A DNA stretch of 52,360 nt. It comes from Candidatus Kapaibacterium sp. Lineage in GTDB: Bacteria; Bacteroidota; Ignavibacteria; Kapaibacteriales; UBA4661. Each line of letters starts with the position of its first letter. The first letter of the stretch is position 1. The position numbers and the translations under genes were made by a program. Where the stretch lies: positions 1-52,360 of the forward strand of contig RDXM01000129.1 of NCBI GenBank assembly GCA_004292595.1, read 5' to 3'. Below, one piece after another: positions 7,535-19,086 of the stretch. Below the pieces are notes generated by a model. That model saw nothing but the letters and a program-made list of their open reading frames with translations. It was not told the origin of the DNA and ran no database searches.

Positions 7535-8317
7535 ATGAATAGTTTCAATTCTCCGAAACAAGGCAGCATGCTGCCTTGCTCAAATCAAAGTATTCAAAAT
7601 ACAGTCAAAACTCCTCCGGCGCAAAAGGTACAGCCACTTTCCGCCGTTTTGACGATTGATATTTCTGGTTCAATGTCGTGGGGAAAAGGAAAATTTACCA
7701 ATCTCCAACTGGCGCAACAAGCCGCTTCTGCGTTTGTGCGGGCGTTGCAGTTGCCGCCGTCGGAATGCGCTGTTACGAGCTTCAATGGCATTAGCTTTAT
7801 CAATCAAGATTTTACCGCCGACCGCGCATCGTTGCTTGCTGCCATAAACGCACTTCAGCCCGACGACGGCACACATTACATGGAAGGCTTGCTGAATGAG
7901 CCGGCGAGCGGGATTCCGATTGCCAAAGCCGGACGCAACAAGCGCGTCGTAATTTTCCTCACCAACGGCTTGGGCGACGGCGACGAAGAAGCGATTGTGA
8001 AAGCGGCAAAAGACAAGACGATTGAGATTTATTGCGTTGCGGTGGGTTTGCCCGCTCCGTCGCTTTTGCGCAATATCGCTCGGCGCACAGGCGGTGTCTG
8101 CTTTGAAAATGTGAACGATTTTGTGCGGATTACGCATGTCTATCAAGCAATCGTGCAGCTTGCGCAAGGTAGAACGCCATGCGAATTTACGTGGCGCAGC
8201 GATGCTCCATGCGACACGGAAGAAAACACACTCACGGCGCGTTTGCAAAATGAAGCCGATTCCCTTGCGACAAATTTATCTTACCTATCCAGAATCTACA
8301 TACAAAACGTAGCATAA
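7535..8317 (+). CDS. vWA-domain portion of the split gene
   Basis: 260 residues. The first 18 or so (MNSFNSPKQG...) translate a palindrome-containing insert. The vWA domain then begins (SAVLTIDISGSMSWG, intact DxSGS metal site) and runs through VVIFLTNGLGDGDEEAIV to about residue 210, with a short tail ending YIQNVA. Without the upstream fragment it lacks a signal peptide, so it is probably not exported and the locus is probably decaying. The last 11 codons belong to the block duplicated at 11038, showing that this gene was the original upstream neighbour of dnaE. Confidence 0.6.
   Translation: MNSFNSPKQGSMLPCSNQSIQNTVKTPPAQKVQPLSAVLTIDISGSMSWGKGKFTNLQLAQQAASAFVRALQLPPSECAVTSFNGISFINQDFTADRASLLAAINALQPDDGTHYMEGLLNEPASGIPIAKAGRNKRVVIFLTNGLGDGDEEAIVKAAKDKTIEIYCVAVGLPAPSLLRNIARRTGGVCFENVNDFVRITHVYQAIVQLAQGRTPCEFTWRSDAPCDTEENTLTARLQNEADSLATNLSYLSRIYIQNVA
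7559..7578. repeat. Perfect 20-bp palindrome at the break point of the vWA gene
   Basis: CAAGGCAGCATGCTGCCTTG is fully self-complementary. A GTTTCG/CGAAAC pair flanks the sequence just upstream. It lies within the roughly 90 bp separating the two reading frames of the vWA gene and could be part of a small insertion that caused the frameshift. Confidence 0.6.
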
Positions 8318-8513
8318 ATTGCATTCGTGGAACTTCTTTCATTTTGTTGGCTATGGTCAAAAAACGTATTTTGTTTCCACCATAAGTTATTCGTTCAAAA
8401 AACAACTTCCCATGCCCCAATTCATCCACCTCCACAACCACACCCACTACTCCCTCTTGGACGGCGCAGCCACACCCGAAACACTGCTCAAAGCTGCATC
8501 AGAGCAGGGGCAC
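8281..8513 (+). repeat. Duplicated dnaE 5' region, copy 1
   Basis: This block holds the last 11 codons of the vWA gene, the intergenic region and the first 34 codons of dnaE. It aligns with 11038-11270, about 80 percent identical in the intergenic part by eye. It marks the left boundary of restriction-modification module 1. It was probably the original dnaE upstream region. Confidence 0.85.
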
Positions 8514-8621
8514 GATGGCTATATTCGCACCCGTGCCGAGCGTAGTAGCCGTGCGGCTTTTGAGGAGGCTTTGGCGAGTGTTTCTGTGGCGGAGGCGGAG
8601 GAGTGGGATAAAAGAGGGTGA
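8412..8621 (+). pseudogene. Truncated dnaE 5' fragment (copy 1) running into foreign sequence
   Basis: The ATG at 8412 opens with MPQFIHLHNHTHYSLLDGAA, the PHP-domain start of DnaE. Homology ends after about 34 codons (KAASEQGHD). The frame then continues with an unrelated tail (RTRAERSSRAAFEEALASVS... EEWDKRG) to a stop at 8621. That acidic tail resembles the C-terminus of small antitoxin-type proteins, but this is only an impression. It cannot function as polymerase. Confidence 0.75.
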
Positions 8622-8715
8622 GGCTAAATCTCATTGTTTTTATTGAATTTTCGCATTATATTTGCATACAAAAAGTAGCATACGCGATTTTGCAAGACAA
8701 TCACATTACCATACA

Positions 8716-9867
8716 ATGCAATCCACACTATTTGCATTAGACCAACCAAAAATGTTGGAAAATGTCTCTCCTTCGCATGGCGCAAAGGTGACGGGAACAC
8801 TCGCGCGTGTAGGAAGATATGAAGCATTGAAAGAAAAACTTGATAACGATATACTGTTCAATAATAACTGGTATGAAGTTAATACAGAACTAGAGATTGC
8901 ATCACAAACAGAATTTACTTTTTTTGACCTGTTTTCTGGTGCAGGTGGAATGTCCGTTGGCTTTAGAGATGCAGGTTTTATCAAAGTTGCAAGCATTGAG
9001 ATTGATAAAGATGCCTCTGCTACTATTCGCCGTAATTTTCCTACATCACATCATTTCGAGCAAAATATTCAAGAAATTCAAGCCGCAGAAATAGATGCCG
9101 TCGTGAAGCAGCGACACATCAATATCGTGTGTGGAGGTCCACCATGCCAAGGTTTTTCGGTTGCAGGACTGCGCAAAGCAGACGACCCGCGCAATCAACT
9201 TTTTCGTGAGTATATCCGCATTGTACAACATCTACAACCAGATTTTATTATCATGGAAAATGTACCAGGGCTTTTGACGATGCAAAATGGAGCAGTGTAT
9301 GAAGAGATTCGTCATCAACTTGGCGACGCTGGATATCCGAACATATCCGTCAGGATTTTGGAAGCCGCAGAATTTGGTGTGCCACAGCTTCGCGCACGTG
9401 TTGTTATTGTCGGCAATCGCTTGGGACTGAAAAATCCTTATCCTAAGCCGTTTGTTTCAAAGGAGCAGTATTTGACGATACACGATGCGATTGAGGATAT
9501 GAAAAATATGCCGTTTGATTCACACTGGCATCATATCGGCACAACGCACTCAAAAGAAATGGAGCAGCGTTTAGCCGCAATACCGCCTGGAGGCTCGTTG
9601 TATGATAAATTTCGTGATGCGTGGAAACGTCAATATCGCAACGCACCAAGCATGACGGTAAAAGAAAATCACGGTGGGGTTCATGTTCATTACGAACTCA
9701 ATCGGGTGCTGACGGCAAGAGAAATGGCACGGCTACAAACGTTTCCCGATGACTATATTTTTAGCGGAACATTCAAACGGGCATATTGGCAAATTGGCAA
9801 TGCTGTTCCGTGTTTGCTGGCGCGGCATATTGGTCTTGCGATTAAAACGGCTCTCCCAGCCAAATAG
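8716..9867 (+). CDS. DNA (cytosine-5) methyltransferase, type II restriction-modification
   Basis: About 383 residues. All key C5-methyltransferase motifs are present in order: motif I FFDLFSGAGG (about residue 70), motif IV GGPPCQGFS with the catalytic Cys near 144, motif VI MENVPG, motif VIII QLRARVVIVG, then ARLQTFPDDY and the motif X-like QIGNAVP. A roughly 65-residue N-terminal extension precedes motif I. An upstream TTG at 8662 is in frame, but the ATG at 8716 seems more likely. It protects host DNA against the convergent endonuclease; the two genes overlap tail to tail by 26 bp. Confidence 0.95.
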   Translation: MQSTLFALDQPKMLENVSPSHGAKVTGTLARVGRYEALKEKLDNDILFNNNWYEVNTELEIASQTEFTFFDLFSGAGGMSVGFRDAGFIKVASIEIDKDASATIRRNFPTSHHFEQNIQEIQAAEIDAVVKQRHINIVCGGPPCQGFSVAGLRKADDPRNQLFREYIRIVQHLQPDFIIMENVPGLLTMQNGAVYEEIRHQLGDAGYPNISVRILEAAEFGVPQLRARVVIVGNRLGLKNPYPKPFVSKEQYLTIHDAIEDMKNMPFDSHWHHIGTTHSKEMEQRLAAIPPGGSLYDKFRDAWKRQYRNAPSMTVKENHGGVHVHYELNRVLTAREMARLQTFPDDYIFSGTFKRAYWQIGNAVPCLLARHIGLAIKTALPAK

Positions 9868-10789
9868 CAAGCGTCCTATTCAGGGCTTTGCGCCATGCGT
9901 CAATATCGTACCAAGGGCAGCCCAAACACCCGATTTCTGCCTCCGCACCGATTTTTACTACGGGCAGTTCTCGTTCAATAAAGTTTGTAGCCCAATTGTT
10001 ATCGCCTTCTGCAAAGAAGTCAATGCCAAATATCTGCCCACGCTGATTCGTTTGAAAACACTGCCGACAGACTTCACGCTTTTGCTGATTACGTTGGTTA
10101 TCTATCAATTGAAATTTGCTGCGTATTGCTTCATCACTCATTGTTTCGGGGTTTTCGGCTTTTGTGTGAGCATCCCAACGGATTTCGGGAAATTTATGGT
10201 CGGGCAGTAAGCCCGCCTTATTTGCTCTGCTGATCTCGTACACATTCACGTATTCCAACACACGCAATGCCTTTGCACGAAAAGCCTTACTGAGTGCTTC
10301 ATAGCCTGTTTCCAAACCACGTGGAAGCGGCAACAGTAAGCGCTCCGTTTTCTGCCCAACGCGCCGACTGGCAATCGTATAGCCCATTTCTTTAATGTCC
10401 TGAATCCTGCGCTGTGGGTTGTCATTGGCGGGAAAAGCACTTGTCCATTCTAATTTTGCGAGTTCGTCGAAAAATGGTTTTGTTACCGTGCGACCGCTCA
10501 AATGCTCATTCCAATACGCTATTTCCTGCTGAATCCATATCGCACGGGCGTTGGGCTGAAAATATTCTGCAATACCTTCCAAATATGCCGCGATTGTGCG
10601 TTCATCATCAAGAAATAATCCAGTACGGCGATACTGATATGGCACGAGTCCTGACCAATACGACCTCTCCGCGCCATCAAGAAACTCAAGTTCAACATAA
10701 GATTCAGAGGCTTTTGTATGAGGCTCCGGCAGAGAAATAATGCGGATGCGAGAATTGGCGAGATATTCACGCAGAAGGTCAATACTCAT
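9842..10789 (-). CDS. Probable type II restriction endonuclease, HNH-like
   Basis: 315 residues. The C-terminal third contains DHKFPEIRW (about 197-205), then NQRNQQKREVCRQC and a second CLGC pair (Cys 241/244 and 288/291). A DH-x-x-P-E motif followed by Asn and two CxxC pairs is what a zinc-supported HNH (beta-beta-alpha-metal) nuclease looks like. The assignment rests equally on context: it pairs with a C5-methyltransferase and a controller protein, overlapping the controller by 4 bp. The recognition sequence cannot be told from sequence. Confidence 0.75.
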   Translation of the reverse strand: MSIDLLREYLANSRIRIISLPEPHTKASESYVELEFLDGAERSYWSGLVPYQYRRTGLFLDDERTIAAYLEGIAEYFQPNARAIWIQQEIAYWNEHLSGRTVTKPFFDELAKLEWTSAFPANDNPQRRIQDIKEMGYTIASRRVGQKTERLLLPLPRGLETGYEALSKAFRAKALRVLEYVNVYEISRANKAGLLPDHKFPEIRWDAHTKAENPETMSDEAIRSKFQLIDNQRNQQKREVCRQCFQTNQRGQIFGIDFFAEGDNNWATNFIERELPVVKIGAEAEIGCLGCPWYDIDAWRKALNRTLAIWLGEPF

Positions 10790-11001
10790 AATTTTGGTGT
10801 AATGACATCGGTAATGCTCACATTTAATGCCTCTGCCAAACGCTCAAGGTTACGAAGCGTAATGTTGCGCTCGGCACGTTCAATCATACCGATATAAGTA
10901 CGATGAAAACCTGCTTTATCAGCAAGTTCTTCCTGCGACAAACCCTGTCGAATACGCTCGGTGCGAACATTTTCGCCAAGAATAGTGAGAATATCAGCCA
11001 T
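10786..11001 (-). CDS. XRE-family controller (C) protein of the restriction-modification module
   Basis: 71 residues, almost entirely a helix-turn-helix domain (LSQEELADKAGFHRTYIGMI, then ERAERNITLRNLERLAEALN). Size, fold and position directly before the endonuclease, with a 4-bp overlap, match C proteins. These delay endonuclease expression until methylation is established by binding an operator upstream of their own gene. The operator would lie in 11002-11060, at the junction with the duplicated dnaE upstream block. Confidence 0.88.
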   Translation of the reverse strand: MADILTILGENVRTERIRQGLSQEELADKAGFHRTYIGMIERAERNITLRNLERLAEALNVSITDVITPKL

Positions 11002-11015
11002 GATGTTTGATTGTG

Positions 11016-11039
11016 AAAAGAACAGAATATACGTCTTTT
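11016..11039. promoter_or_regulatory. Possible C-protein operator
   Basis: AAAAGA (11016-11021) and TCTTTT (11034-11039) form an inverted repeat with a 12-bp spacer, 15 bp upstream of the controller start codon. Location fits autoregulation; the match is short and AT-rich, so this is tentative. Confidence 0.3.
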
Positions 11040-11363
11040 ACCTATCCAGAATCTACATACAAAACGTAGCATAGTTTATATTCACCGTTCTTCTTTCATT
11101 TTGTTGGCTATGGTCAAAAGCCGTATTTTGGTGCGACCACAAGTTATTCGTTCAAAACACAACTCCCCATGCCTGAGTTCATCCACCTCCACAACCACAC
11201 CCACTATTCCCTCTTGGACGGCGCAGCCACACCCGAAACACTGCTCAAAGCCGCTTCCGCACAGGGACACACAGCCGTCGCGCTCACCGACCACGGCGTG
11301 ATGTTTGGCACATTCGAGTTTTACAAAAAAGCGAAGAAGTACAATATCAAGCCCATTTTGGGC
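11038..11363 (+). repeat. Duplicated dnaE 5' region, copy 2
   Basis: The block contains the tail of the vWA gene, the intergenic region and 65 codons of dnaE. Its left part repeats 8281-8513. Its right part (11169-11363) repeats 15541-15735 with four differences in 195 bp. It separates restriction modules 1 and 2. It contains the only full copy of the old dnaE upstream region on the dnaE-proximal side, so it may hold the promoter for module 2. Confidence 0.9.
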
Positions 11364-11366
11364 TAA
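11169..11366 (+). pseudogene. Truncated dnaE 5' fragment (copy 2), 65 codons
   Basis: This encodes the first 65 residues of DnaE (MPEFIHLHNHTHYSLLDGAA to NIKPILG) with an amino-acid sequence identical to the intact gene. A TAA follows immediately at the junction with module 2. All four base differences from the intact copy are synonymous. It could make a short PHP-domain peptide, but no function is expected. Confidence 0.85.
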
Positions 11367-11456
11367 AGACGAAAATTGCTTCTTAGAATGCGGAAATATC
11401 TCTATTTTCATGGTGTCATTGCTTATCTACACTTCTTCCTCATTATCAATGTACCA

Positions 11457-12356
11457 ATGGACATTCTATCATCTGTTTCCGATATTGCTGATAATCAGAG
11501 CAATGGAGAGACTGAAAAAAACGCAAAAGCTGTTGATAAGCGAAATAAGTTAAACGAACTCACGGGTTCTGAGTGGATGCCCGAAACCAAAAGTTTCTTT
11601 TATCAAAAAGGACTTGGTGCAAAGCATCCCGATACGAAGTATGAAAAAATGCACCCCGCGCCTTTTTCCTACACAGATATTATACGACTTATTCGCTTTT
11701 TTACGAAGACAAATGACCGCGTTCTGGACCCGTTTAGCGGTATAGGTTCCACATTAAAAGCCTGTCTTGAAACCGAGCGGGATGGATTTGGTGTCGAACT
11801 AAGCGAGGATTGGTGCGCCTTGACACGAGAACGCCTTCACCAAGAAAGTGCAAAATCTATTGACAAACATCATCTCCTCTGCGAGGATAGTCGCAATCTT
11901 ACAACGCTCTTTTCAAAAGAGACGTTTGATTTTATCGTTACCTCACCACCGTATTGGAGCATTTTAGATAAAAAAGATCATAAAGCAAAAATGCGGGTCG
12001 AAGATGGCTTAGAAACCAAGTACAGTAACGATACCAGAGATTTGGGTAATATTGAATCATACTCTGATTTTTTAGAGGAGCTGCTCAATATCTGCTTTCA
12101 GTGCTATGATGTTCTCAAAAAAGGGAAGTATTTCTGTTTGATTGTCAGTGATTTTCGCCATAAGTCTCATTTTATTCCTTTCCATAGCGATTTGGTACAA
12201 GCACTTTCGCAAAATCCCAAAGCAGAACGCCAATTCATGCTCAAGGGGGTAAAAGTGCTTCTCCAAAATGCGAAAAAACTGTTCCCCTACGGCTATCCGT
12301 TCAGCTACGTCGAAAATATTCATCATCAATACATTCTTATTCTGCAAAAGCCATGA
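11457..12356 (+). CDS. DNA methyltransferase, N4-cytosine or N6-adenine (TSPPYW type)
   Basis: About 299 residues from the ATG at 11457; the frame is open further upstream (TTG 11376, ATG 11388) but that part is hydrophobic and unlike the family. Motif X-like HPAPFSYTD and motif I DPFSGIGSTLKAC (about residues 91-103) precede motif IV TSPPYW (about 162-167), so the order is X-I-IV, opposite to the next gene. SPPY favours N4-cytosine but does not exclude N6-adenine. It overlaps the following methyltransferase by 4 bp. Two methyltransferases with one endonuclease suggest an asymmetric recognition site with each strand modified separately. Confidence 0.88.
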   Translation: MDILSSVSDIADNQSNGETEKNAKAVDKRNKLNELTGSEWMPETKSFFYQKGLGAKHPDTKYEKMHPAPFSYTDIIRLIRFFTKTNDRVLDPFSGIGSTLKACLETERDGFGVELSEDWCALTRERLHQESAKSIDKHHLLCEDSRNLTTLFSKETFDFIVTSPPYWSILDKKDHKAKMRVEDGLETKYSNDTRDLGNIESYSDFLEELLNICFQCYDVLKKGKYFCLIVSDFRHKSHFIPFHSDLVQALSQNPKAERQFMLKGVKVLLQNAKKLFPYGYPFSYVENIHHQYILILQKP

Positions 12357-13210
12357 ATAGCTTGCCAAATTTGAATACGATACACAATATGGATTGCGTT
12401 GAATTTATGCAAACAATTCCTGATGCTTGTGTTGATGCCGTTATCGCCGATCCGCCCTATAATCTCAACAAAAATTTTGGCAATGACAGTGATGTGTGGA
12501 ATACCGCAGAAGATTGGGTGCAATGGTCAAAAACCTGGATTGATGAATCTCTTCGCATTTTGAAGCCGACCGGCTCTATCTTCATCTATGGTATTCACCA
12601 TTTTACGTGCTATACGCAATGCTATTTGTACGAAAAACAGATGAAGTATCGTCGGCAAATTATTTGGCACTATGAAAATGGCTTCTCCATGTATCGTAAT
12701 GCTCCTGCCGCTCACTATGAAACGCTCTTATGGTTTTCTAAAAGCAACAATTATACTTATCATCCCATTCGAGAAGCCTATAAAAGCCAAGAACGCTTGC
12801 GGCACAAAATCATCAAAAATGGCAAAATTTGGACACCACACCCTGACGGCAAACACGCCGGAGATGTTTGGAATATTCCAACTCTTGCCGGCAGGCGATT
12901 TCAGGATGAACGGACGGCGCATCCCACGCAAAAGCCCTTAGTTTTGGCTCATCGTTTAACAAAGCATTTTACAAATGAAGGAGATGTTATTTTTATACCG
13001 TTTGCTGGAAGCGGTACAGAATGTGTCAGTGCGGCTTTCCATAACCGACATTTTCTTGCAACTGAACTGAACACAGAGTATATCTCCATTGCAGAAAAAC
13101 GTCTAAAAAGCATTCAAGCTGATGTAGCAACAAGGGAGCAGAGCCATGCGACAAGTAATGCAAAAGATTATTTGATGTATGATAGACAAGTTGCCGAGAC
13201 ACTTTTTTAA
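12353..13210 (+). CDS. DNA methyltransferase, probably N6-adenine, beta class (DPPY)
   Basis: 285 residues. Motif IV ADPPYNLNKNFG is at about 33-44, then motif X HPTQKPLVLAHRL (about 193-205) and motif I PFAGSGTECVSA near 220: the IV-X-I order of beta-class amino-methyltransferases. DPPY usually goes with N6-adenine. The start ATGA overlaps the stop of the preceding methyltransferase, indicating translational coupling. The nuclease gene follows after 21 nt. The class differs from its partner, so this is not a simple tandem duplication. Confidence 0.9.
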   Translation: MNSLPNLNTIHNMDCVEFMQTIPDACVDAVIADPPYNLNKNFGNDSDVWNTAEDWVQWSKTWIDESLRILKPTGSIFIYGIHHFTCYTQCYLYEKQMKYRRQIIWHYENGFSMYRNAPAAHYETLLWFSKSNNYTYHPIREAYKSQERLRHKIIKNGKIWTPHPDGKHAGDVWNIPTLAGRRFQDERTAHPTQKPLVLAHRLTKHFTNEGDVIFIPFAGSGTECVSAAFHNRHFLATELNTEYISIAEKRLKSIQADVATREQSHATSNAKDYLMYDRQVAETLF

Positions 13211-13231
13211 ACATACTTTCCTGCTGCGACG

Positions 13232-15532
13232 ATGATTCGTATTCCAAATCCGAAGTCTGACATTTTCGAGTACATTACTATCGTATCGCTTCTTGAAGAA
13301 CATACGAAAACATCAGGACAACCAACCTTTACGTTTGATGATATTTCTCTCGTGCTTGCCTCCAAAGGAAAAATTTCCTCTCAAAAAGCTGTTGGCTCAC
13401 AGGCGGTACAAGCGAGTTTCCGAAAAGATAGAAGTCTCGACGGTGTTTTTAATCAATCGAAAGCATTATCGGAAGTGCTGCGGCTTATGGGATTGATGGG
13501 AAAGGTGGAGAATCAACACACATTCCGCCTGACGATATTCGGGCAGATTGTTGCACAATATCCTCACAACGACCATCCCGAATACAAGCGCGGTGTATTG
13601 CATTTGCTTCGTTGGTCGTTTGTCAATATGAATTTCAAGCATCCGCTTATTCAAGCGAATGCGGATTGTGATGTGAAGCCTTTTTCGGCATTAATTGCTT
13701 GCTTGCCTTCACTTGAAGGCTTTATTACAAAAGCAGAAATTAATTATGTAATTTTAACGCTCAAAACTGATAATAAAGCCGCTTGCAAGCAAGCAATCCA
13801 AGACATTCAGCGTTTACGAAAAGAGGCAGGATATTTTCACACGTACAAAAGCGTGCAGCTTCGCACGGCTCAAATCGCCGAGGCTACTGCCGATAATTAC
13901 ACCCGTATTCCTATTTCATTTCTGCAACAACTTGGTATTCTACAAAAAAAAACATGGCAGGAAGCATTACCAATACTGGGTTTAACAGAAAATGGTGAGT
14001 ATTTTCTTGGCGAGAAAAAAGCTAAAAACAGCACCGAAGTTTTTATCGCGGGTGGTCATTTCCAAGAAGTATCGGAAAAATTACATTCATCGGAAAGTGT
14101 TACATTTGCGAGGTTTGAGCGTTACTCTACTGCGGAAAAAATTGCGATGAGCATTAAGTGTTTATTAGACAGTTTCAGCGACCTACCCGCGCAAAACCCT
14201 CCACCGATACAAAGCCCCAATTTGCCTGAGAAGTATCGTACAACACCGATATATGCCTTTCCGTATCAACTCCTCACGGACAAAGAATCAATAGAATTTG
14301 AACGCTATCTTGCTTCAATGCAAAGCAGTGCCGACATCAATTTTTGGCTGCCTCATTACGCGTTACAACGCTCTGGGCAGCGCAGAATATGGTATGAATT
14401 GCCTCAAGATGTTGTTTCTATCAGGGCATCACTCCATAAACACCCCATAGCGGCAATACGACCGAAAGAAGCAGAAAACATATCGTGGACTTCGTTTTCC
14501 TGCGTAAACTGCCAACCCCGAAGATGCTGCGAATATTCGTCTGATGAATTACGCTATTCCACCACTATTTTTCAAGAAATCCCCGATAGCCAAGAAAAAC
14601 AAGTCTGCCCGACTGGTGCAATATCAATAAGCGCGGAACTTGTGCCTACCTTGGACTATAATAAGTGTATAGACTGCGGGGTCTGTATTTCTCGGTGTAA
14701 TTTTGGGGCAATTTATTACGAAAATAATGCACTCACTATTTCTACCCGCCTATCAGCACAAAACCTTACGTCGAGCGATGCCGAAGAGCCTACACAATAT
14801 TTCACATCGTTGAATGTGCCTCGTCATTACAGCATTTCCGATGACGAAGTTCTTGCGCAATGCCGAAATTTTTTCAATAAAGTCAAGACATTGCGCAAAA
14901 ACGAGTTTTATCCACTTGTGCGCAATTTGTTTCGCAGTTTAGGATTCAAAGCTAAAATTGGTCGTAGCGGAGATACGCAATGGCGGTATGATGCCTTGGT
15001 TCTTGAGCCGTTTGTCATGCCTATTGAAATCAAATCCCCCACAGAAGTTCAAGCGATTTCACCCGATGCTGTTCGCCAAGCGATTGAGAATTCTATAACG
15101 ATTGAGGGGAATCACCACCTCACTCGAAAAGCCATAAGTGCTGTTGTTGCTCTGTTGTACTCTAACGAGCGCAGTGCTTCCAAAGATATGCTCACGTCTG
15201 CCAATGATTTGCATAACATTCGGATATTGCTGGTTTCTGTGGTCGTCCTGCATTACCTGAACCTGAAAAATTTGGATAATTATTTCTTGCCTCAAGATAT
15301 TCAGTTTCTTTTCCAATCCACTATCGGGGCGTTTGACGAGGAAGCAATCAAAGAGTTTTGGCTTCACTACCTTGCACGGCGCTTAGAATTTGATGCTTTG
15401 GGTAAGGAATCTCGGTATTCAAGTGTCGCTCATGAAGTTTTTATGCCCGATGAATTTATGCTACAGGATAAGTTAAAAAGTGAAGTTGAAGCATTCAAAG
15501 CAATCTACGATTTGATTCGACCAACCAAGTAA
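13232..15532 (+). CDS. Putative restriction endonuclease: PD-(D/E)XK domain plus dicluster ferredoxin-like region
   Basis: 766 residues. Residues 1-260 look like winged-helix DNA-binding segments (FRLTIFGQIVAQYP, LGILQKKTWQEALPILGLTE). Residues 424-489 hold nine cysteines: CVNC (424, 427), a CC pair (432, 433), CPTGAIS (459) and the classical CIDCGVCISRCNFGAIYY (479, 482, 485, 489). The last four plus Cys459-Pro follow the bacterial 2[4Fe-4S] ferredoxin pattern. A PD-(D/E)XK core follows: RYDALV with Asp587, then PIEIKS with Glu599 and Lys601. It ends an operon with two methyltransferases, so a restriction function is the natural inference. Cluster binding and cleavage are untested. Its stop lies 8 nt before the dnaE start. 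Confidence 0.8.
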   Translation: MIRIPNPKSDIFEYITIVSLLEEHTKTSGQPTFTFDDISLVLASKGKISSQKAVGSQAVQASFRKDRSLDGVFNQSKALSEVLRLMGLMGKVENQHTFRLTIFGQIVAQYPHNDHPEYKRGVLHLLRWSFVNMNFKHPLIQANADCDVKPFSALIACLPSLEGFITKAEINYVILTLKTDNKAACKQAIQDIQRLRKEAGYFHTYKSVQLRTAQIAEATADNYTRIPISFLQQLGILQKKTWQEALPILGLTENGEYFLGEKKAKNSTEVFIAGGHFQEVSEKLHSSESVTFARFERYSTAEKIAMSIKCLLDSFSDLPAQNPPPIQSPNLPEKYRTTPIYAFPYQLLTDKESIEFERYLASMQSSADINFWLPHYALQRSGQRRIWYELPQDVVSIRASLHKHPIAAIRPKEAENISWTSFSCVNCQPRRCCEYSSDELRYSTTIFQEIPDSQEKQVCPTGAISISAELVPTLDYNKCIDCGVCISRCNFGAIYYENNALTISTRLSAQNLTSSDAEEPTQYFTSLNVPRHYSISDDEVLAQCRNFFNKVKTLRKNEFYPLVRNLFRSLGFKAKIGRSGDTQWRYDALVLEPFVMPIEIKSPTEVQAISPDAVRQAIENSITIEGNHHLTRKAISAVVALLYSNERSASKDMLTSANDLHNIRILLVSVVVLHYLNLKNLDNYFLPQDIQFLFQSTIGAFDEEAIKEFWLHYLARRLEFDALGKESRYSSVAHEVFMPDEFMLQDKLKSEVEAFKAIYDLIRPTK

Positions 15533-15540
15533 ATATCACC

Positions 15541-18500
15541 ATGCCTGAATTCATCCACCTCCACAACCACACCCACTATTCCCTCCTGGACGGCGCAGCC
15601 ACACCCGAAACACTGCTCAAAGCCGCTTCCGCACAGGGACACACAGCCGTCGCGCTCACCGACCACGGCGTGATGTTTGGCACCTTCGAGTTTTACAAAA
15701 AAGCGAAGAAGTACAATATCAAGCCCATTCTGGGCTGCGAACTCTACATCGCCGCCGGAAGCCGTTTTGACAAGACTTCGGGCAAAACGAAAACCAAAAA
15801 TTACTATCACCTCATTGCGCTCGCCAAAAACAACAAAGGCTACGAAAACCTGATGAAACTGAGTTCCATCGGGCATACCGAAGGCTTTTACTACAAGCCG
15901 CGCATTGACAAGGAAGTTTTGGAGCGGCATAGCGAGGGCTTAGTCATTACCTCTGCTTGCGTGGGCGGCGTGTTGGGAGCGCATTTGGTGAATCACGACT
16001 ACGACAAAGCCCGCGAGGAAGCCGTTTGGTACAAAGAACGCTTTGGGGATGATTTCTATGTGGAAGTACAAAATCACTTCATTGACCTCGACAAGCCGCT
16101 TTTGGAATATGCTCCAAAACTGGCGCAGGAACTGGGCTTGAAGCTGGTTGCCACGAATGATTGTCATTACATCAAGCAAGAACACGCCACCGCGCACAAT
16201 GTCCACCTCTACATCAAGGATGCAAGCCAAGCAAATGCCGGAACGCTTGATGTGATGCGCCTTCGCTACGGCACACCCGAATATTATTTCAAAACCGCCG
16301 ACCAAATGGCGGATTTGCTAGGGCATCTGCCGGGCGCGATTGAAAATACGCTTGAAATTGCCGAAAAATGCAACGTCAATCTCAAGACCGATTTGTATAT
16401 GCCGGAGTTCCCGATTCCTGCGGATTCCAAGGCGACCAACCTTGATGAATTCATGGAGGAACTCACCTTCAAAGGCATTGAAAAACGCTACAAGGTTGAT
16501 GATTACAGCAAAGCCACCGATGCCGTCAGGGAGCGCACCGAATTTGAACTCGGCGTTATCAAAAAAATGGGATTCGCGGGGTACTTTCTCATTGTGCAAG
16601 ATTTCATCAATGCGGCGAGGGAAATGGGCGTGAGCGTGGGTCCCGGACGTGGCTCTGCTGCTGGTTCGCTGGTGGCGTATGCTCTGGGAATTACCAACGT
16701 AGATCCGCTTCAATACGACCTTCTTTTTGAGCGATTTTTGAACCCCGACCGCGTGTCCATGCCCGATATTGACGTGGATTTCAACGACGAAAAGCGTGAA
16801 CAGGTCATTCAGTACGTCCGCGATAAATACGGCGAAAATTCCGTTGCACAGATTATCACCTTCGGAACGCTTTCCACGAAAGCCGTCATCAAAGACGTGG
16901 CGAGGGTTCTGGGGATTCCGCTTGCAACGGTGGATCAAATCACCAAGCCCATTCCGACGATTTTGGGCAAAGTTACACCGCTCAAAGAAGCACTCGAACT
17001 GCCCGAACTGCGCTGGGTGAAGGAGTCCGACGACCCCAAAATCAAGCAGCTTATTGAGTACGCATCCGTGCTGGAAGGTTTTGCCCGCAACTCCTCTATC
17101 CATGCGGCTGGCGTGGTAATTGCGCCCGGCGATATTTCGCAATATGTGCCGCTTTATAAGTCTGATTCTGGGCTGGCAACGCAGTACAATATGAAAGATT
17201 TGGAGGACGCGGGGCTGCTTAAAATGGACTTCCTGGGGCTTCGGACGCTTTCAATTATTGACAATACGGTCGCAATGATTGAACGAAATCACGGCGTAAA
17301 AGTGGATGTGGATGCGCTGGATTTGTTCGACAAAAAAACCTACGCCATGCTCAGTGCGGGCAAGACGACAGGCGTGTTTCAGTTTGAATCCGAGCCGATG
17401 CAGAAGTATTTGAAAATGCTCAAACCCACGAGTCTTGAGGATTTGACTGCTATGAACGCGCTCTACCGTCCGGGTCCGATGGATAACATTCCCGATTTCT
17501 GCGACCGCAAGCAAGGCAAACAGGCAATTACGCTGCTGCACCAGCTCATGGAGCCGTCTCTGCGACCCACCTACGGCATTATCGTCTATCAGGAACAGGT
17601 GATGCAACTTGTGCGGGATTTGGCAGGTTTTTCGCTCGCGCAAGCCGATATTATGCGGCGAGCGATGGGCAAAAAAGATGCAAAACTGATGCAAGAGCAA
17701 AAGGTTTTATTCGTCGAAGGAGCGCAGAAAAACGACATTGGCGAAAAGTTGGCAGGGGAAATTTTCGATTTGATTTTGAAGTTTGCCAGCTATGGTTTCA
17801 ATAAGTCCCACGCTCTTGCGTACTCGTATTTGGCGTTTCAAACGGCGTGGCTGAAGGCGCATTATCCCGCAGAATTTTTGGCAGCGAACATGACGGCAGA
17901 GCTTGGAAACCTTGATAAAATCGTGGGTTTGATTGACGAAGCAAAGTATTTCGGCATCGAAGTTTTGCCACCCGATGTGAATGAATCGTTTGCAAGTTTT
18001 ACAGCAATTCCCCAAAAACCAAGCAGTAATGAGCCTTCTGACAGCGAAACTCAACACTCAACACTTAGCACTCAACACTCCGCAGGAAAGATTCGCTTCG
18101 GTCTCGCTGCCATCAAAAATGTGGGCGAAGGAGCGGTCGAGAGTATCATCAAAGCAAGGAATGAAGCGGCTTTTGCGTCGTTCTTTGATTTCGCCAAGCG
18201 CGTGGACACGAAGGCAGTAAACAAGCGGGCTTTGGAGGCATTAGTCTGTGCGGGCGGCTTCGATTCCCAGAACTTGGGACATCGCGCCCAGCTTTTCCAC
18301 GCCATTGACGATGCAATCCGTTTTGGCAATGCGCAGAGCAATCAAGAGGATAACGGCATGGACAGCCTTTTTGGAGCGGCAGATGTTGTTGCGGTTTCAG
18401 AACCAAAACTGCCCCAAGTGCAGGCGTGGAGCTACTTCGAGCAGCTCAAACGTGAAAAAGAATTTTTGAATTTCTACGTGAGCGGACACCCGCTCGAACG

Positions 18501-19086
18501 CTACCGCCCGCACGTGGAGGCATTTGCGACGCTGCAATTGGGACAAAAAAACAGCCCGCTTATCGGCAAAAATGTCCGTGCGTGCGGCATTGTTGCTGGT
18601 ATTCGGCAGAAATTAGATAAAAAAGAACAGTCTATTGCGTTTGTGCAAATCGAAGATTTTTCGGGCAAAGCAGAGTGTATTTTTTGGAGCGATTCCTTTG
18701 CAAAATTCCGTCATCTGCTCGTGGAGGACGCAATCATCATGGTTTCGGGGAAATCGCAAATTGACGGCTCGGATTCGCTGAAAATTGTGGTAGATGATAT
18801 TTTTCCCGTGAGCGAAGCAGCGACGCGCTTTGCCAAGGGCGTAAAAGTTATCACCTCGCGCCAGCGCACCAAACCTGAGCATATCCAAAAGGCACGAGAG
18901 CTGATGAATGCTCATCCGGGTAAGATGGAAGTCGTCTTTTCGGTGTTTGATGAAAACGCTGAAGACCGTACCAAACCTTGCGCCATGTACCGCGCAAAGG
19001 ATTTTCGATTTTCTCCCGATGATACGACAATCGAAGCACTGATGCGGCTTTTTGGGCATAAGCAAGTGAAGTTTTGGACGGAGTAA
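15541..19086 (+). CDS. dnaE: DNA polymerase III alpha subunit
   Basis: 1181 residues, the normal length for DnaE1. The N-terminal PHP domain begins HLHNHTHYSLLDGA (residues 6-19) and continues ALTDHGVMFG. The catalytic palm has PGRGSAAGSLVAYAL and PDIDVDF (about 408-414, two metal-binding Asp). Fingers, a helix-hairpin-helix region (IRFGLAAIKNVGEGA) and an OB fold (VQIEDFSGKAECIFW) follow. It replicates the chromosome. The intact gene starts 8 nt after the nuclease gene; its native upstream region is displaced to 11038-11168 (and an older copy at 8281), so its transcription now probably depends on the module 2 operon. Confidence 0.97.
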   Translation: MPEFIHLHNHTHYSLLDGAATPETLLKAASAQGHTAVALTDHGVMFGTFEFYKKAKKYNIKPILGCELYIAAGSRFDKTSGKTKTKNYYHLIALAKNNKGYENLMKLSSIGHTEGFYYKPRIDKEVLERHSEGLVITSACVGGVLGAHLVNHDYDKAREEAVWYKERFGDDFYVEVQNHFIDLDKPLLEYAPKLAQELGLKLVATNDCHYIKQEHATAHNVHLYIKDASQANAGTLDVMRLRYGTPEYYFKTADQMADLLGHLPGAIENTLEIAEKCNVNLKTDLYMPEFPIPADSKATNLDEFMEELTFKGIEKRYKVDDYSKATDAVRERTEFELGVIKKMGFAGYFLIVQDFINAAREMGVSVGPGRGSAAGSLVAYALGITNVDPLQYDLLFERFLNPDRVSMPDIDVDFNDEKREQVIQYVRDKYGENSVAQIITFGTLSTKAVIKDVARVLGIPLATVDQITKPIPTILGKVTPLKEALELPELRWVKESDDPKIKQLIEYASVLEGFARNSSIHAAGVVIAPGDISQYVPLYKSDSGLATQYNMKDLEDAGLLKMDFLGLRTLSIIDNTVAMIERNHGVKVDVDALDLFDKKTYAMLSAGKTTGVFQFESEPMQKYLKMLKPTSLEDLTAMNALYRPGPMDNIPDFCDRKQGKQAITLLHQLMEPSLRPTYGIIVYQEQVMQLVRDLAGFSLAQADIMRRAMGKKDAKLMQEQKVLFVEGAQKNDIGEKLAGEIFDLILKFASYGFNKSHALAYSYLAFQTAWLKAHYPAEFLAANMTAELGNLDKIVGLIDEAKYFGIEVLPPDVNESFASFTAIPQKPSSNEPSDSETQHSTLSTQHSAGKIRFGLAAIKNVGEGAVESIIKARNEAAFASFFDFAKRVDTKAVNKRALEALVCAGGFDSQNLGHRAQLFHAIDDAIRFGNAQSNQEDNGMDSLFGAADVVAVSEPKLPQVQAWSYFEQLKREKEFLNFYVSGHPLERYRPHVEAFATLQLGQKNSPLIGKNVRACGIVAGIRQKLDKKEQSIAFVQIEDFSGKAECIFWSDSFAKFRHLLVEDAIIMVSGKSQIDGSDSLKIVVDDIFPVSEAATRFAKGVKVITSRQRTKPEHIQKARELMNAHPGKMEVVFSVFDENAEDRTKPCAMYRAKDFRFSPDDTTIEALMRLFGHKQVKFWTE

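Follow-up and report, generated by a model that had tools for sequence, protein, structure and literature searches.

A widespread candidate restriction-modification family with a ferredoxin-type module, and its single-chain form in a Candidatus Kapaibacterium genome

The stretch of DNA analysed here (the window: 52,360 nt, contig RDXM01000129.1 of assembly GCA_004292595.1, Candidatus Kapaibacterium sp.) encodes a 766-residue protein next to two DNA methyltransferases, M1 and M2. With a probability of roughly two in three, we read the three genes as a restriction-modification cassette working in the manner of BspD6I, a heterodimeric Type IIS/IIT enzyme, and carrying, in addition, a ferredoxin-type module. 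In its relatives the nuclease parts are shared between two overlapping genes. Gene A encodes a recognition region together with a PD-(D/E)XK nuclease; gene B encodes the ferredoxin module and a second, altered nuclease domain. Together they look like a widespread and apparently undescribed family of restriction systems that keeps the ferredoxin module.

The open reading frame (ORF) of the window enzyme (13232-15532, forward strand) has an ATG start and an unbroken frame, and begins 21 bases 3′ of the overlapping methyltransferase pair. A first-pass annotation, made from the sequence alone, had described nine cysteines at residues 424-489 and a PD-(D/E)XK core in an operon with two DNA methyltransferases, and all of this was upheld. 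The protein has 14 cysteines, nine of them within that segment (424, 427, 432, 433, 459, 479, 482, 485 and 489); D587, E599 and K601 are present, and both neighbouring ORFs match the Pfam family N6_N4_Mtase. Pfam PF00037 (Fer4) matches residues 473-495 (27 bits against a gathering score of 21.1, E 3.6e-6). This match covers one motif only, with the dicluster models below cut-off there, and is the sole one above a curated cut-off for the enzyme in Pfam, NCBIfam and PADLOC; PADLOC, searched without cut-offs, added two weak matches (E 0.0063 and 0.025). Sequence matches in the Protein Data Bank (PDB) fell mostly in the ferredoxin-like stretch (best E 0.0022).

Only C433 among the nine cysteines lies outside an invariant set of eight, which form two CxxC-type motifs with remote fourth ligands, in the window protein as in 44 of 44 full-length B proteins. 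All of the conserved cysteines sit in one module N-terminal to the nuclease core, and none follows D587. Cas4, AddB and Dna2 also combine a PD-(D/E)XK nuclease with an iron-sulfur (Fe-S) cluster, but in these enzymes that single cluster is held by four cysteines that flank the core, whereas here eight cysteines occupy a separate ferredoxin-type module ahead of it; the earlier statement that the two layouts differ is correct. A Cas4/AddB-type cluster was rejected, the cysteines being misplaced for it.

Searches with the single window protein gave two matches in 60 nearby genomes, both within the Fe-S region, and matched 20 of 395 genomes of the phylum, of which, besides its own genome, only one (G205) was convincing outside that region. 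G205 has an ORF for the N-terminal region, a nuclease ORF and a contig-end ORF that includes the cysteine pattern's first half. A search with the window-G205 alignment found three viral loci, two of them identical; the first two-row window-G205 alignments, in which some ends are misplaced, served, like A3 and A6, for motif choice only. The viral locus L013 has the full layout: an A protein of 559 amino acids and a B protein of 367 amino acids, with relatives of both window methyltransferases encoded on the other strand. The four-gene system is carried on viral contigs (L013:1-12593 and its copies), where neighbouring genes at 10790-12561 look, by eye, like phage genes for head and terminase. 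The A proteins were then aligned, and this alignment retrieved at least 43 loci from a species-level genome collection, a lower bound because the scan used two short patterns, together with two new viral loci. With identical viral copies removed, the set comprises 47 related loci, 43 genomic and four viral.

Other searches returned little. Query P0001 gave no confirmed match in viral contigs and only weak matches, centred on the Fe-S region, in plasmids and phages. Queries P0002 and P0003 had no match in plasmids and none confirmed in viral contigs, and P0002 found only G205 itself among 80 genomes of the family of G205. The A protein of L040 matched nothing in plasmids and phages, and neither the order (123 genomes) nor a class sample (391 genomes) contained a relative besides G205.

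M1, M2, A and B occur together in 42 of the 47 loci, and the five that miss some of the four genes (L016, L042, L043, L047 and L060) all end at contig edges. This linkage emerged although A alone was the search query. Among the 42, L023 and L030 have a broken or partial M1, L030 also has a partial M2, and A lies in two ORFs in L036, L056 and L057. Because the methyltransferases stand upstream, downstream or convergent relative to A and B, the linkage withstands rearrangement. The start of B lies at or ahead of the A stop codon in 46 of 46 loci (counted from longest-ORF starts), and all 46 relatives with any B on the contig carry the Fe-S module on this separate gene. The description of the module as embedded in one chain therefore holds for the window copy and fails for these 46 relatives. 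Chance fusion to a ferredoxin was rejected as an explanation, since the same 46 have a ferredoxin module beside A. The loci span about ten phylum labels, and many are metagenome bins; record titles name Polynucleobacter, Trinickia, Niastella and Oceanobacillus, which are aerobes, and Clostridium and Ruminiclostridium, which are anaerobes.

Gene content, domain layout and residue conservation were observed directly in these sequences. Every full-length B protein (44 of 44) has all eight ligand cysteines, a count from which the B proteins of L028 and L042, cut by contig ends, were dropped. As pairwise identity among the full-length B proteins has a median of 33 % and a minimum of 21 %, this conservation exceeds chance. 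Fer4 passes its gathering score in all four B proteins scanned, and Fer4_7 and Fer4_10 pass in some. The homologues support the predicted ferredoxin-type module, the PD-(D/E)XK nuclease and the co-conservation of the cysteines with the nuclease and both methyltransferases. The catalytic D, E and K of the A nuclease are invariant (47/47). In the B nuclease, by alignment, D is kept in 43 of 44 proteins and E in all 44, and the lysine position is E in 42 of 44. Such ExE sites are found in active enzymes, for example BamHI. The two exceptions are Bacteroidota copies, L056 (ESQ) and L057 (EIG), and both keep the Fe-S module. The A and B nuclease domains are mutually related (E 9e-7). The window enzyme retains all eight ligand cysteines as well as D587, E599 and K601.

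The folds were predicted. The AlphaFold2 model of the window protein (mean pLDDT 73.1, pTM 0.53) is confident at about residues 10-250 and 541-680 and fairly confident at 431-500, with a dip at 441-450; that of the B protein of L040, a Clostridium thermopalmarium locus, has a mean pLDDT of 93.4 and a pTM of 0.92. In a Foldseek search with the window model the top eight rows were Nt.BspD6I chains (E 2.7e-6 to 3.5e-5), followed by FokI. VIA-align superposed the window model on Nt.BspD6I with Z 15.9 over 382 residues, at an rmsd of 24.4 because the domains are placed differently, and on FokI with Z 10.1; the match to ss.BspD6I (2p14), at Z 7.8, is at a level attainable by chance. The nuclease half of the L040 B protein matched Nt.BspD6I (Z 10.6, 165 residues, rmsd 3.5), FokI (Z 9.9) and HindIII (Z 9.5). 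Its front half matched the Fe-S subunit 6x1o_B with a Foldseek probability of 0.98, and with Z 5.5 over 113 aligned residues, again a chance-attainable level.

Nt.BspD6I is the best fold match for both the window protein and the B nuclease half, and the likeness to R.BspD6I/BstNBI extends to organization. In the parts of the sources available, the large subunit of BspD6I binds and nicks DNA and the small one acts only with an active large one (PMC6261011); in BsrDI, BtsI and BspD6I the larger subunit recognizes the site and cuts one strand while the smaller is responsible for cutting the second, and two separate methyltransferases are the general rule for Type IIT enzymes (PMC4081073). R.BspD6I thus shares with the family a recognizing-and-cutting large subunit, a small catalytic subunit and two separate methyltransferases (PMC6261011, PMC4081073), and BtsI and BsrDI likewise pair a large subunit holding recognition and one catalytic site with a small subunit. 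The relatives have such a second, smaller catalytic subunit in gene B, whereas the window does not: its form is one chain with one nuclease. A further difference is that the small subunit here bears a ferredoxin module and an ExE site, while the available text mentions no Fe-S module for BspD6I. The single-chain enzymes BsrI and Mva1269I, compared by description, keep two catalytic sites where the window enzyme has one. FokI resembles the window protein in its recognition region followed by a single nuclease domain, but no sequence match to it was found in a search of the PDB with a profile of 43 A proteins, and to our knowledge FokI has no Fe-S module. We say that the family works like BspD6I, and not that it is a member of that group, because no sequence relation to Nt.BspD6I was found.

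The window chain itself appears to be composite. The B protein of L013 aligns colinearly with window residues 391-677 (24 % identity, E 4e-15), the window nuclease carries the A signature PIEIKSP, and it falls on the A side of a branch with 100/100 support that separates 44 B from 47 A nuclease domains. Taken together, the colinear B alignment and the A-side nuclease make the chain an A recognition region, a B ferredoxin module and an A-type nuclease, followed by an 84-residue tail. The nuclease of B itself is, to judge from sequence, gone from the window system: its own assembly (96.5 % complete) holds no other A match and no separate B nuclease, the four further matches to the B profile comprising the Fe-S part only. 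None of the 47 other loci has the fusion, and the window holds the sole fused copy found. In L056 and L057 the catalytic residues of B are changed, and a background in which its nuclease had become dispensable would explain its loss from the window system, but the window lies outside their clade in the recognition-part tree. In these two loci and in L042, gene A is divided into a recognition ORF and a nuclease ORF, which in L042 lie in the same frame with a single stop between them; as the three form one clade (100/99) in the recognition-part tree, the split may be one event.

M1 and M2 carry the motifs TSPPY and DPPY, which suggest that M1 is of the m4C type and M2 of the m6A type. TSPPY is present in 43 of 46 M1 rows, the exceptions being two low-scoring unrelated ORFs and one 102-aa fragment, and DPPY in 42 of 45 M2 rows, the exceptions being two partial ORFs and one unrelated ORF.

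From these features we infer cleavage, specificity, cluster binding and the role of the cluster along the following lines. In the usual form of the family the two methyltransferases would protect the host site, presumably one for each strand. Subunit A would recognize the DNA and cut one strand with its PD-(D/E)XK site, and subunit B would contribute the ferredoxin module and the ExE nuclease-like domain, which may cut the other strand or serve only as a dimerization partner. The single chain of the window would cut by pairing two copies, which is how FokI cuts, or would only nick. The Fe-S module would act as a structural or allosteric connector, setting the nuclease in position with respect to the recognition part, a role made likely by its being kept where the catalytic residues of B are changed or the B nuclease is lost. 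Its retention in the window enzyme implies that it probably does something for A, and its location, on the small partner in the relatives and between recognition region and nuclease in the window, suggests a site at the A-B interface near the hinge of A.

Several observations weigh against this model. No family member has a known activity, and the profile of 43 A proteins, compared with all PDB chains to E 10, returned two unrelated chains and no BspD6I. Foldseek gave the B model no match at E <= 0.001; for the window model, low-confidence at the linker (364-423) and the tail (683-766), a whole-chain rmsd of 24 and TM-scores of 0.17-0.21 on the query mean that it matches domain by domain. A pattern-based count of the B ExE site gave 37 of 44, the alignment-based 42 of 44 being the one adopted. 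The family counts are not all independent, because the B proteins of L030 and L036 are identical, and the Thermoproteota-labelled L016 groups with Polynucleobacter and viral rows, so its contig may be misbinned. The window M2 is nearest to that of L057, but the M2 of L056 lies in the other half of the tree, and methyltransferases and nucleases may therefore have been exchanged. The fusion is known from one assembly of one genome, and the recognition-part tree does not group it with the clade of L042, L056 and L057. Its end branches measure 4.4 (recognition part) and 4.56 (nuclease), against medians of 0.25 and 0.36, and because they are so long the exact place of the window enzyme in the trees is unsure. 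It keeps 28 of the 34 columns invariant in A; with such extreme divergence, it could be altered in function.

These last points bear on the alternative that the family works but that the window copy is drifting or repurposed, the fusion now nicking, binding or decaying, which we regard as possible though doubtful. The very long branches of the recognition part and the nuclease, set beside an M2 that shares 58 % identity with its best relative, the loss of the B nuclease and the change of six of the 34 A-invariant residues would all be expected of such a copy, but its 766-codon ORF is intact and the eight cysteines and three catalytic residues are all kept.

Redox-gated restriction, the idea of the first-pass annotation, in which two [4Fe-4S] clusters would alter their redox state or disintegrate according to oxygen or electron supply and so switch cleavage or the second-strand cut, is in our estimate unlikely. 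The invariant eight-cysteine pattern is the layout of an electron carrier, a single structural cluster needing only four cysteines, and the B profile matches many electron-carrying ferredoxins in the PDB; however, the hosts include aerobes as well as anaerobes, and the recurring four-gene set contains no redox partner (the survey covered A, B, M1 and M2). A specific version, rather improbable too, has the two-cluster ferredoxin gate the double-strand cut: the enzyme would cut both strands when the clusters are intact or suitably reduced and would otherwise only nick, with the window protein as a single-chain switch; if true, restriction would be tied to the redox or iron state of the cell. We favour a structural or allosteric role for the Fe-S module over redox gating, and the range of hosts fits a structural role at least as well.

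Two further alternatives have very little to commend them. Zinc modules are common in nucleases, but it is hard to credit that the cysteines bind zinc or nothing and that the ferredoxin likeness is superficial, since C-x2-C-x2-C-x3-C, taken with a remote CP and a GAI motif, makes a ferredoxin signature, Fer4 scores above gathering in the window and in all four scanned B proteins, and the front half of the B model has a fold match to an Fe-S subunit, if at a chance-attainable Z. That the fusion is an assembly artefact of a genome with separate A and B genes is similarly far-fetched: the assembly is single, metagenome-like and in 199 contigs, and no second fused copy exists in the 47 relative loci, but the three domains share one 766-codon frame with no frame break, the cassette is bounded exactly by a duplication of the dnaE start on both sides, and no other A or B nuclease match occurs in the assembly.

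That duplication (Table 1) is a direct repeat of 201 bp, 97.5 % identical, and the sequence between its copies has a G+C content of 0.416, against 0.478 for the window. It is best read as the mark of an insertion with a long target duplication at the start of dnaE. Such insertions have been reported for restriction systems in the portions of the literature available. Other species of the genus have different restriction genes at the same site, and together the duplication, the low G+C and the varied genes support the view that the cassette was acquired as a mobile unit. Across the genus, restriction genes seem to have a hotspot at the start of dnaE.

Table 1. Features of the cassette and of its flanks in the window
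Feature	Position	Strand	Basis or details
Upstream copy of the dnaE 5′ end (target duplication)	11164..11364	+	Direct repeat
Inserted cassette (M1, M2 and fused enzyme), exactly between two dnaE-start copies	11365..15535	.	201-bp direct repeat, G+C
M1 DNA methyltransferase, TSPPY motif	11376..12356	+	Pfam N6_N4_Mtase, E 9.6e-24; relatives beside A/B
M2 DNA methyltransferase, DPPY motif, overlaps M1	12353..13210	+	Pfam N6_N4_Mtase, E 1.1e-45; relatives beside A/B
Putative fused restriction endonuclease (recognition region, ferredoxin module, PD-(D/E)XK nuclease), 766 aa	13232..15532	+	
Recognition-like region, residues ~6-350, counterpart of the N-terminal part of gene A	13247..14281	+	A-profile match (own genome, 13232-14011) and Nt.BspD6I model match
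Ferredoxin-type region, residues 424-489	14501..14698	+	Conserved Cys 424, 427, 432, 459, 479, 482, 485, 489
PD-(D/E)XK nuclease, residues ~540-680, A-type	14849..15271	+	D587, E599, K601
C-terminal tail, residues 683-766	15278..15529	+	Low model confidence, no relative found
Downstream copy, start of intact dnaE (ORF 15541-19086)	15536..15736	+	ORF and direct repeat

The window holds three dnaE-start copies (8281-8513, 11038-11364 and 15536-15736; pairwise 88-97.5 % identical where they overlap), which bracket two successive restriction cassettes at 8514-11037 and 11365-15535. The one before the middle copy consists of a C5 methyltransferase (8662-9867, forward strand; PF00145, E 7.7e-73) and a convergent ORF (9842-10789, reverse strand) that matches the PADLOC model REase_II, a type II restriction enzyme (E 2.1e-26). 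This C5-methyltransferase cassette also stands upstream of dnaE in the same-genus genome G002 (L079), its nuclease 89 % identical. At the corresponding position in other genomes of the genus, G007 (L080) has two C5 methyltransferases and a Bpu10I-family nuclease, G001 (L081) a C5 methyltransferase and G005 (L078) an N6 methylase together with a type I specificity domain; G002, G005 and G007 have partial copies of the dnaE start upstream, and no restriction gene was seen upstream of dnaE in G006 (L082) and G003 (L083). One ORF of G007 (L080:1894-3201) joins a duplicated dnaE start in frame to a C5 DNA methyltransferase (Pfam PHP at 10-59, DNA_methylase at 44-430), and this cassette may borrow the dnaE translation start.

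As to novelty, no Pfam, NCBIfam or PADLOC model was found for A, or for B outside its ferredoxin part, among the proteins scanned. Known Pfam restriction families were rejected: at most three of 43 A proteins matched any one family, with a best E of 0.0094 and unrelated names. Fold searches leave room for an unlisted family. Among the literature matches listed, mostly open full text, there was no restriction enzyme with a ferredoxin or Fe-S module, although REBASE may contain an entry. A 2014 review of Type II enzymes (PMC4081073) uses none of the words iron-sulfur, ferredoxin and Fe-S, and a 2025 restriction review has 'iron-sulfur cluster' once only, in a DndC reference. Regions of the 4Fe-4S ferredoxin type do occur in conflict systems, in the PAPS-reductase-like proteins BrxP and SspD and in HEPN-T joined to a ferredoxin dyad, but the parts of these sources available do not describe them as attached to a PD-(D/E)XK nuclease (PMC12839542, PMC3710099).

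Overall, these systems would make up a family of restriction enzymes in which a ferredoxin module is a fixed part. Three forms occur in nature: one has a separate Fe-S subunit bearing an ExE nuclease, in another the site on that subunit is degraded, and the third is a single fused chain that lacks the second nuclease. The role of an Fe-S module in a sequence-specific nuclease, whether in structure, in DNA contact or as a redox gate, is for that reason open to experiment. The large subunits of BspD6I-like enzymes serve as nicking tools.

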